Positions 1,563 to 48,667 of a stretch of DNA of 64,000 nt are shown here, piece by piece. Within the stretch, counting starts at the first letter, position 1. Each line of letters opens with the position of its first letter. Both the position numbers and the translations under genes were made by a program. The DNA comes from Oscillospiraceae bacterium (GTDB lineage Bacteria > Bacillota > Clostridia > Oscillospirales > Oscillospiraceae): the NCBI GenBank assembly GCA_015067725.1, contig SVLX01000007.1, positions 1-64,000 on the forward strand, written 5' to 3'. The notes beneath the pieces are model-generated. The model saw nothing but the letters and a program-made list of their open reading frames with translations. It did no database searches and was not told the origin of the DNA.

Positions 1563-2608
1563 ATGGCAACAATCAAAAAACGGGGCAATTCCTATCTGAT
1601 CCGCTGTTATGATGGCTATGACCAAAACGGCAAGCAGATTGAACGGACTATGACATGGAAGATTCCGGCGGGAATGTCCGAAAAGAAGGCAGAGAAGGAA
1701 GCACAGCACGAAGCGGCACTGTTTGAAGAACGGGTCAGAACAGGGCAAATCCCGCCACCGAAGAAACGGCGCAAAAAATAGCCGATGCTTTACACATCGA
1801 CTTTGACAAGCTGTTCCAGCCTTCCGGTGATCCCCAGCCCCTTTCCGGGCAAACAATCCTTCACTATCACAGATTGATTTCTGTGATCCTGCAAACCGCC
1901 GTGGAATGGCAGTATATCCCCGCCAACCCCGCAGAGCGGGTGAAAGCCCCGAAAGCCAACAATCAGGAAGCAGAATATCTTGATGATAAACAAGCAATCC
2001 GGCTTTTGGAACTTCTGGAAGGACAGCCGATTTATTACAAAACCGCAATTCAAGTCCTGCTGTTCACAGGAATGCGCCGGGGTGAATTGTTGGGTCTGGA
2101 ATGGACGGACATTGACTTTGACAATCAGACCATCACGATTCAGCGTTCCTTGCAATACCTCCCAGAAGTCGGCGTGTTCAAGGATGAAACAAAAACGAAG
2201 TCCAGCCACCGGGTTATTAAAGTCCCGTCCTCTGCGTTGGTATCACTCCGGCAATATCGGACATGGCAAAGAATGACCTTCCTGAAGAACGGTCTTCCGT
2301 GGAATGAATCTTGTCAGGTGTTTGTCACCCAGAACGGAACGCCTATGCACCCGGACACGCTGACAAGCTGGTTCGGCGGGTTCATCAAAACAACTGATCT
2401 TCCGCAGATTCACATTCACAGCCTACGGCACACAAACGCAACCCTTCAGATTGCTAACGGCGTTTCCGTCACCACCGTGGCGGGCAACCTCGGACACAGC
2501 AACGCCAACACCACAACAAAGGTTTACGCCTACGCAATCCAGAGTGCCGCCGCCGCATCCGCTGAAATGATGGACAACCTCTTGAACCCCATCAAAAAAC
2601 AGGCTTAA
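1563..2608 (+). pseudogene. Tyrosine integrase, disrupted by internal deletion and frameshift
   Basis: The N-terminal arm-binding piece (1563-1781, 72 codons, MATIKKRGNSYLIRC) runs into a stop. The catalytic part resumes in another frame at about 1745 with ETAQKIADALHIDFDKLF, and continues with ILHYHRLISVILQTAVEWQY to the end. The core-binding domain, which normally lies between them, is missing. The catalytic half keeps Arg in GMRRGE, HSLRH, the LGHSN histidine and a C-terminal Tyr in KVYAYA. Together this indicates a deletion that also changed frame. The gene is convergent with tRNA-Trp and its 3' end lies about 100 bases from the tRNA 3' end, a usual integration position. An internal start near 1874 could still yield a catalytic fragment. 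Confidence 0.8.
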
Positions 2609-46470: not shown

Positions 46471-47940
46471 TTAGGGATGAGCAGCAACCCACTCGGCCTG
46501 GGTGTAGGTTGTGCCATTGTAGACGATGCTGCCGACGGTTGCGCCAGTCTTAATAACCAGAGCGGGGGGATAGGTACCGGCAGGGGTCAGATTAATCGTA
46601 CCAACATGAGTGCCTTCACCGATGGTCAGCTTACCGAGATTTCTAGTGCTGATAGCACAAGAATCAATTACATCGATTTCGGTATTAGTAATCGTCACAT
46701 GAGCCTGTGCAGCAAGATAAATCTTACCAAACTCACTACCGTCGATAGTGGTTTTAGTTCCGTTTACAAACGAAGCGTCGTAAGGCTTATATGCGGGATT
46801 CGCAGAAGTGGTACCGGTCATAACGCAATTCTTAAGAGTGGCAGTGCCATAATGGCAGAATGCGGCGGCGACGGGATTTCCTCCTTCTGTAATGCACAAA
46901 GTTGCGACAAGGTCGCTAACGTTCAGATTATTTGCGGTGTAGATACCACCCGTGCTGGTGCCATGATGGCCGAACTCTACAAAACCGGAACCTGTTACAT
47001 TCAGGTTGTTAACACTCGCAGTATTTCCTGCACCGGGGTTGAAGGACAGATATCCGTAGTCGGATTCACCGCTGCCTTTAACACCGCCAGCGGCGATCAG
47101 TGTAATCTCAGCACCTTTACCGTCAAAGTCGGTTTCTTCAATGGTAACGATATCGGTGTTCAAATACACATCGTTGCCGTTCTCAAGAGCTTCAAGCAGC
47201 TCGTTACCATCATTTGTTGTAATGATAGAAGTTTTTGCCCAAGGATGATTCTTGTCATCAATTACACCGAAAGCGGTATTCAGAGCGGTTTCGGCATCGG
47301 AGAAGCCCTCTGTCTGAACGGCCTGAGAGACTGCAAAAATCTCCCAAGTGTCGCCGAATTTGGCACAGTATTCATTGTCAGCCATAGAGTCCAGGAACAC
47401 CTGCACCAGAGAGGGGGCGGACTTTTCGCCTACAGCCAGAGCAGTCTTGTAGGTGTACACAATAATTACGTAGTCAATGCCATCGATTTTGGACTCAATG
47501 GGTTTGGAGGAGGTTACATCGGTACCGTTATAATTGATATGAATGTAGTCCTCTTTATCATGACCGGGGGCCTCGATTGCCACCACGGTACGAACGAAAG
47601 CATCGGACTTGCCGACGTTGTTCACGGTGATGATTTTGTCAACCACGTTCTTCAGGTCAGGGGTGAACACCTTGTACTTGACACCGTTCACTTCCACACC
47701 CTCAGTAGCCCATTCGACAGGACCAACTGCGGGGTAAGCGGGCTTCAACTGCGAGAAAGTCTTCAGATTGCCGTTAGCATCCCGCTCCTGCTCAATCTGT
47801 TCAATCTTCACATTACCCAAAGTCATCACATTGACGTCGCTCTTCTCATCGACCAGATAGGCCAGAGTAACATTGACGGCAATGGCTGCGGTCAGGGCAA
47901 CAACCAGCAGCAAGGCCAGCGCCTTCTTGAAAATTGACAT
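46471..47940 (-). CDS. SipW-type signal peptide surface protein (TasA/CalY-like N terminus)
   Basis: The 489-residue protein starts at ATG 47940 behind GGAGG. The N terminus is FKKALALLLVVALTAAIAVN then VTLAYLVDEKSDVNVMTLGN, the pattern cut by SipW-type signal peptidases in TasA/CalY fibre proteins. A TasA-like domain follows to about residue 215 (PDLKNVVDKIITVNNVGKSD, FVRTVVAIEAP). The C-terminal half is a right-handed beta-helix-like region rich in Asn/Thr/Gly (NNLNVTGSGFVEFGHHG, TATLKNCVMTGTTSAN). It is likely a fibre- or matrix-forming surface protein. No SipW peptidase gene lies in the window. Its promoter is flanked by inverted repeats and may be invertible. Confidence 0.85.
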   Translation of the reverse strand: MSIFKKALALLLVVALTAAIAVNVTLAYLVDEKSDVNVMTLGNVKIEQIEQERDANGNLKTFSQLKPAYPAVGPVEWATEGVEVNGVKYKVFTPDLKNVVDKIITVNNVGKSDAFVRTVVAIEAPGHDKEDYIHINYNGTDVTSSKPIESKIDGIDYVIIVYTYKTALAVGEKSAPSLVQVFLDSMADNEYCAKFGDTWEIFAVSQAVQTEGFSDAETALNTAFGVIDDKNHPWAKTSIITTNDGNELLEALENGNDVYLNTDIVTIEETDFDGKGAEITLIAAGGVKGSGESDYGYLSFNPGAGNTASVNNLNVTGSGFVEFGHHGTSTGGIYTANNLNVSDLVATLCITEGGNPVAAAFCHYGTATLKNCVMTGTTSANPAYKPYDASFVNGTKTTIDGSEFGKIYLAAQAHVTITNTEIDVIDSCAISTRNLGKLTIGEGTHVGTINLTPAGTYPPALVIKTGATVGSIVYNGTTYTQAEWVAAHP

Positions 47941-48065
47941 ATGTATTCCTCCACATATTGATTTTGCCTGCATCAGAAGGACATCATACCGGCAACACAG
48001 GCACACTCCGGCAGATGGCTGAATCCAGCATCACCTCGAATACATCAATCTGAACAATTCCCGAA

Positions 48066-48195
48066 CTGTCAGAATGTTTACCTTTTGACAGTCAGATGTT
48101 CACCATGATTCTATCACAATTATTCTGAAAATGCAACCATATTTGTTGTTTTTCCTGCTGAATGTCGCTCTGTCAAAAGGTAAACATTTTGACGG
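48066..48195. repeat. 26-bp inverted repeats flanking the SipW-type promoter (candidate invertible element)
   Basis: Left copy 48066-48091 and right copy 48170-48195 match at 24 of 26 positions in opposite orientation; 19 bases (CTGTCAAAAGGTAAACATT) are identical. Each copy has GTCAAAA and TTYTGAC arms around an asymmetric 8-bp core GGTAAACA, the layout of tyrosine-recombinase crossover sites. The 78 bp between them (48092-48169) hold the promoter. An alternative is a pair of repressor operators. Confidence 0.6.
48108..48136 (-). promoter_or_regulatory. Promoter of the SipW-type gene
   Basis: On the minus strand TTGCAT (48136-48131), 17 bases, TAGAAT (48113-48108). In the orientation seen it reads toward the surface protein, with a leader of about 160 nt that includes the left repeat. 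Confidence 0.7.
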
Positions 48196-48228
48196 AAAAC
48201 CCGGTATGCCGCAATAAGCATACCGGGT
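48196..48228 (-). terminator. Terminator of the aromatic operon
   Basis: ACCCGGTATGC/GCATACCGGGT is an 11-bp perfect stem, followed on the minus strand by TTTCC. It abuts the right inverted repeat. Confidence 0.85.
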
Positions 48229-48232
48229 AATT

Positions 48233-48667
48233 TTAATCCTTCAATATAGAAACAAGGTAACGCAAGGCGACTTCATAACCGTCTAAACCCAATCCCATAA
48301 CTGTTTTTACACAAGCCTGACGCACATAGGATATCTGCCGGTAACTTTCCCGCTTTCCGGTGTCAGAAATATGCACCTCAACCGTGGGAATGTTTACCGC
48401 TTTCAGTGCGTCCAGAAGGGCAATGCTGGTGTGGGTGTAGGCGGCCGGATTCAGCACAATACCATCATACACCCCATAAGATTCCTGAATCCAGTCGATC
48501 AGCATCCCCTCGTGGTTGCTTTGACGGCAGGTCACTTCTACCCCCAATTCGCTTGCTGTGCGGTGAATCCGGTCGATGAGGTCGGTATAGGTCTCTCTGC
48601 CGTAAATCTCCGGCTCACGAAGACCCAACAGATTCAGATTCGGACCGTTGAGGACAAGAATTCTCAT
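48233..48667 (-). CDS. aroQ: 3-dehydroquinate dehydratase, type II
   Basis: The 144-residue protein has NGPNLNLLGLREPEIYG at the N terminus (catalytic Tyr), RQSNHEGMLIDWI, VLNPAAYTHTSIAL and VEVHISD. It removes water from 3-dehydroquinate to give 3-dehydroshikimate. It is the last gene of the operon; its ATG overlaps the aroEK stop. Confidence 0.97.
   Translation of the reverse strand: MRILVLNGPNLNLLGLREPEIYGRETYTDLIDRIHRTASELGVEVTCRQSNHEGMLIDWIQESYGVYDGIVLNPAAYTHTSIALLDALKAVNIPTVEVHISDTGKRESYRQISYVRQACVKTVMGLGLDGYEVALRYLVSILKD

Follow-up and report, generated by a model that had tools for sequence, protein, structure and literature searches.

Positions 48066–48195 of the analysed window (the whole 64,000-nt stretch at the start of contig SVLX01000007.1 of an Oscillospiraceae bacterium) very probably constitute a short invertible promoter, worked by a small serine recombinase. 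The sequence-only reading had proposed an invertible promoter at this place, and that proposal is supported by (i) the inverted centres of related site pairs, (ii) recombinases adjacent to the sites, (iii) spacers reversed between related loci and (iv) promoters facing both ways. Its assignment of the inversion to a tyrosine recombinase has to be replaced, because the two sites of a pair obligatorily have no more than a 2-bp centre in common, and because the enzymes linked to them belong to the small serine recombinases. From the sequence we infer the flipping of the window copy, the identity of its enzyme and the effect on the neighbouring surface protein.

The repeat pair, its promoter and the adjacent genes

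Direct reading confirmed two 26-bp copies in opposite orientation, which match at 24 of 26 bases (including an identical run of 19 bases) and are separated by 78 bp. This is the only pair of inverted 22-mers in the window (at least 20 of 22 positions matching, starts 60–300 bp apart), and no comparable pair arose in 20 shuffles of the window. The locus contains the following elements:

46471–47940, minus strand: putative controlled gene, encoding a 489-aa predicted secreted SipW-type protein (open reading frame; paralogs; SipW-type peptidase in the genome)
47948–47952, minus strand: ribosome-binding site GGAGG, before the ATG at 47940 (read directly)
48066–48091, plus strand: gene-proximal recombination site, CTGTCAGAAT GT-TT-AC CTTTTGACAG, with the centre TT at 48078–48079 (read directly; matches the genome-wide site family)
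48092–48169, no strand assigned: predicted invertible segment of 78 bp, enclosed by the two 26-bp sites (from the pair and its family)
48108–48113, minus strand: −10 box TAGAAT with TG one base upstream (extended −10; read directly, scored by weight matrix)
48131–48136, minus strand: −35 box TTGCAT (read directly, scored by weight matrix)
48170–48195, minus strand: gene-distal recombination site, inverted, with the plus-strand centre AA at 48182–48183 (exact match to the site pattern)
48199–48228, plus strand: terminator-like hairpin between aroQ and the switch (computed)
48233–48667, minus strand: neighbouring gene aroQ, type II 3-dehydroquinate dehydratase-like (open reading frame, sequence)

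The region 48066–48195 consists of inverted repeats flanking a promoter beside a gene, which is the arrangement that characterizes an inverton. Each copy is itself a dyad, as had been proposed; the asymmetric core GGTAAACA attributed to both copies was not retained, since comparison with other copies of the site reveals a central dinucleotide that is free to vary (TT/AA in the window pair) between palindromic GT..AC flanks.

The complete TTGCAT-17-TAGAAT promoter recognized earlier within the segment was found again on the minus strand, aimed at 46471–47940. It is of moderate strength, with a weight-matrix score of 10.7 (the 95% level of shuffled spacers is 10.8) vs 4.9 on the other strand, where nothing comparable is present, and it is missing from the list produced by a strict promoter scan. 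The designation of the downstream gene as SipW-type is supported by an N-terminal sequence common to its paralogs and by the presence in the genome of a SipW-type signal peptidase (C62:6195–6641; 97.5 bits, TIGR02228 cut-off 51.85). The N-terminal half of the 489-aa protein is common to four paralogs, its comparison with Pfam and NCBIfam gave no match to any family, TasA/camelysin-type fibre proteins included, and its predicted structure (pLDDT 48) yielded no confident fold match. From these sequence features, its product may fairly be regarded as a secreted surface protein. The gene on the other side, whose product we take to be a type II 3-dehydroquinate dehydratase-like protein (AroQ), would be convergent with the flipped promoter and is not thought to be controlled by the switch.

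Among 60 congeners, no allele of the window locus was found in either orientation; weak matches in two of them (G045 and G004) have part of the spacer in common with the window and no site pair.

The site family and its recombinases

A scan of species-representative genomes recovered at least 120 stretches with the exact site, mostly from gut Clostridia. Sequenced isolates with such pairs include Evtepia gabavorous KLE1738, Flavonifractor sp. An10, Pseudoflavonifractor sp. Marseille-P3106 and Cuneatibacter sp. NSJ-177. Together with three viral contigs, the exact-site set comprises 124 listed entries, 86 of which have a partner site within 500 bp. The consensus derived from 91 pairs (L050–L169, the window, L016, L017, L048 and L049) is (A)CTGTCAAAArGT-NN-ACyTTTTGACAG(T), i.e. 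a dyad of 26–28 bp with a free central dinucleotide. This dinucleotide is constant (inverted) within pairs and variable between pairs: among the matches listed (86 pairs), a non-palindromic centre is inverted in 69 of 69 cases and direct in none. These 69 pairs represent many families and several centre types, and they are related to each other, so that a plain binomial probability for 69/69 would overstate the result. Over the 91 pairs, positions 11–12 always match between partners (1.00, vs 0.48/0.73 expected), while the outer position 8 does so in 0.54 of pairs (vs 0.40 expected). The segments are 78–160 bp long in most copies, and the site spacings are periodic at 10.55 bp (R=0.73, n=85; among the matches listed). 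The putative targets across the family include BspA-type leucine-rich repeat proteins, sugar transferases, a CDP-glycerol glycerophosphotransferase and a collagen-repeat protein.

Two further properties of the 91 pairs concern the arms of the sites. The free inner-arm position 15 matches within pairs at 0.91 (vs 0.45 expected), and the outer arms are more mismatched than the inner ones in 48 pairs, with the opposite relation in 13. It may be that the segment carries its inner arms along with it.

A homologous small serine recombinase is encoded in 54 of the 124 exact-site entries, and in 51 of these it lies within 75 bp of a site (among the matches listed). Site pairs directly adjoining such a gene also occur in two genomes of the same genus as the window (G032 and G107). 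Serine recombinases are distinguished by exchange at a 2-bp centre; in tyrosine enzymes the exchange spans 6–8 bp. Judging by their sequences, the family sites have the form of small serine recombinase sites (a dyad about 26 bp long whose 2-bp exchange centre matches that of the partner), and a putative cognate recombinase is linked to them in the family and encoded on another contig (C80) in the genome of the window.

In another genome of this genus (G115; L049:7089–7593), the recombinase beside the pair looks truncated, because only residues 108–200 of the query are matched. The promoter of this pair is aimed at a gene for an AMP-binding enzyme, and the pair is possibly a locked switch.

Many known invertons are flipped by tyrosine enzymes, and the genome of the window encodes three Phage_integrase proteins. 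One of these lies within the window itself (1874–2608, plus strand, at least 244 aa), which corrects the earlier statement that the window holds no intact recombinase; it is apparently unrelated to the sites, and none of the three was found beside a site. The genes that do adjoin the sites encode small serine recombinases, and the sequences give no indication of a common core of 6–8 bp or of a linked tyrosine recombinase, the features expected of a tyrosine-recombinase inverton. With 2 bp alone obligatorily common within pairs, and position 8 matching only about half the time, flipping of the promoter by a tyrosine recombinase is most improbable. We consider it equally far-fetched that the two copies are operators at which a dimeric regulator loops the DNA around the promoter, with no inversion taking place. 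Dyad sites present in several genomic copies, at spacings that are multiples of the helical turn (as looping needs), would fit such a regulator, but it leaves unexplained why the centre is always inverted within pairs and variable between them, and it accounts neither for the adjacent recombinases and the reversed spacers nor for the finding that the promoter faces away from its gene at the majority of one-sided loci. Where a strong directional promoter is accompanied by one targetable gene, 10 promoters point toward the gene and 30 away from it (according to automatic gene calls).

Signs of actual inversion were obtained from loci that were oriented by a homologous flank before their spacers were compared. 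In two Erysipelotrichaceae MAGs (L067/L125), the spacers are 85% identical when one is flipped vs 51% unflipped, and the right flanks share 84% identity. For a second pair of loci (L048/L137), the values are 79% flipped vs 52% unflipped, with 88% identity in the flank carrying the recombinase. The spacer reversal holds relative to one flank only, because the flanks on the other side (65% and 57% identity, respectively) are not clearly homologous. Among 21 orientable locus pairs, 17 have the same orientation and four are reversed, two of the latter being weaker or not independent.

A Chloroflexi MAG (JAJRVO01 contigs) contains about 10 lone exact sites, often with the centre GC and with no partner or recombinase nearby (L057, L064, L085, L089, L098, L100, L136, L146, L152 and L157). 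They possibly represent an unrelated kind of dyad, for instance an operator, and a lone site is therefore no proof of a switch.

Putative switches and candidate enzyme in the genome of the window

The sequence-only reading had suggested a search for the same site elsewhere in the genome, and this search was successful. With the pattern GTCAAAANGTNNACNTTTTGAC (up to three mismatches), 10 sites were detected, vs one for a reversed control pattern. Besides the window, pairs of sites with a spacing of 137 bp are present on contigs C70 and C13. C63 and C64 each have a single site at the extreme contig end, and C2 and C80 have one degenerate site each. The C70 pair precedes two SipW-type genes in tandem, and the contig ends of both C63 and C64 are upstream of a single gene of this type. 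The C13 pair (L017:7476–7634) precedes a gene of the AbiH family (L003:225–1352; PF14253, 3.3e-29), and this phage-defence gene is a candidate for phase variation. The promoters at C70 (TTGAAA-17-TATAAT), C63 (TTGCAA-17-TATAAT, read by eye) and C13 face away from their genes, unlike that of the window.

The contig ends at C63 (L018:11681–11792) and C64 (L035:6595–6620) both break at the site and have TGTCTACTTTTTGGCAGTC in common. These contigs may be the opposite sides of a single flip-flop promoter that separates two divergent surface genes. In a search for their adjacency by synteny, the dnaC-like gene of the relatives examined had no SipW-type neighbour.

The window pair has the smallest spacing (104 bp; the others are at least 115 bp, among the matches listed), and both of its copies carry outer-arm changes, which would suit a real family member that is locked and no longer flips. 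A spacing of 104 bp is nevertheless in phase with the 10.55-bp period of the family, the inner arms and the centre are intact, and the A-to-G arm change of the window site is also present at C70. We therefore regard a locked window copy as unlikely.

Four PF00239 proteins are encoded in this genome, only one of which is small, namely a 202-aa protein of contig C80 (L020:10686–11294) with a complete Resolvase domain and the motifs RVS and DRLGR. A maximum-likelihood tree of 60 recombinases places it in a clade of 41 members (support 99/96), and all of the other 40 members have a site within 200 bp. Among proteins of solved structure, Sin (2r0q) is the best match by sequence. No site pair was found beside the C80 gene, so the enzyme would have to act in trans. 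Most congeneric recombinases at 54–65% identity have no such site nearby, so that site specificity seems to differ among recombinase branches. On the basis of these comparisons, the C80 protein is the likely enzyme of the window switch.

A dimer of the small serine recombinase would bind each dyad, and two dimers would meet across the short, helically phased loop. Cleavage at the 2-bp centre TT/AA and rejoining after rotation would reverse 48092–48169. In the present orientation, the promoter is predicted to transcribe 46471–47940 (ON). After inversion no promoter would face this gene (OFF), and the flipped promoter would aim at the hairpin 48199–48228, which would stop transcription. The C80 recombinase, supplied from another contig, would act in trans on several switches.

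Comparison with known systems and wider implications

The invertible promoter proposed for the window resembles the Hin system of Salmonella, in which two palindromic 26-bp hix sites surround a promoter. The likeness extends to the inverted orientation of the sites, the small serine recombinase and the switching of a surface structure (PMC2427008, PMC3798978). Hin differs in inverting about 1 kb, in the Fis-bound enhancer and in the position of hin inside the segment, whereas the segments of the window family are mostly 78–160 bp long and the likely enzyme of the window is encoded elsewhere in its genome. The Mpi recombinase of Bacteroides fragilis, which inverts 13 regions in trans (PMC4747536), provides a parallel for one serine recombinase acting in trans on many small promoter segments that govern surface structures (PMC4747536, PMC5903667). 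The C80 enzyme is nevertheless far below the cut-off of the Mpi model (NF009949 of NCBIfam; 40.1 bits, cut-off 272), and the host phylum is different. RecV and the Cdi regions of Clostridioides difficile are a clostridial case of DNA inversion at multiple loci that affects surface structures, but RecV belongs to the tyrosine recombinases, and the Cdi repeats are for the most part unrelated to one another (PMC5903667).

The arrangement also recalls the invertons of PhaseFinder-type gut surveys, which are intergenic promoter segments between short inverted repeats near surface genes, linked to invertases in the vicinity (PMC11892184). The text of this survey, in which reads from a defined gut community were mapped, names tyrosine-type invertases and leaves serine enzymes unmentioned (PMC11892184). 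The kind of inverton is already known (Hin, Mpi), and the site family is absent from the literature searched: a limited search found no papers with the site motif.

A broader interpretation can be offered tentatively, as one that may well fail. The sites and enzymes could belong to a widespread clostridial clade of serine invertases that acts on very short, whole-turn segments by tight-loop synapsis without a distant enhancer; the window's genome would then contain an orphan master switch, operating in trans on the surface genes and the AbiH gene, and C63/C64 would form a flip-flop. The site consensus is searchable and ties the enzyme clade to its switches, which would allow the phase-variable genes of gut Clostridia (for surface proteins, glycan enzymes and phage defence) to be predicted without data other than sequence. 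The helical-phase rule makes a statement about mechanism that can be tested, and the set of switches in the genome of the window suggests that one enzyme may serve both surface proteins and a phage-defence gene.

Homologues of the recombinase are also present in plasmid and phage collections, nearly all at less than 60% identity. At a contig end in the genome of the window (G000:C61:17581–22148; L036), three large serine recombinases with open frames of 383 to 659 aa are clustered, which suggests an integrated mobile element.
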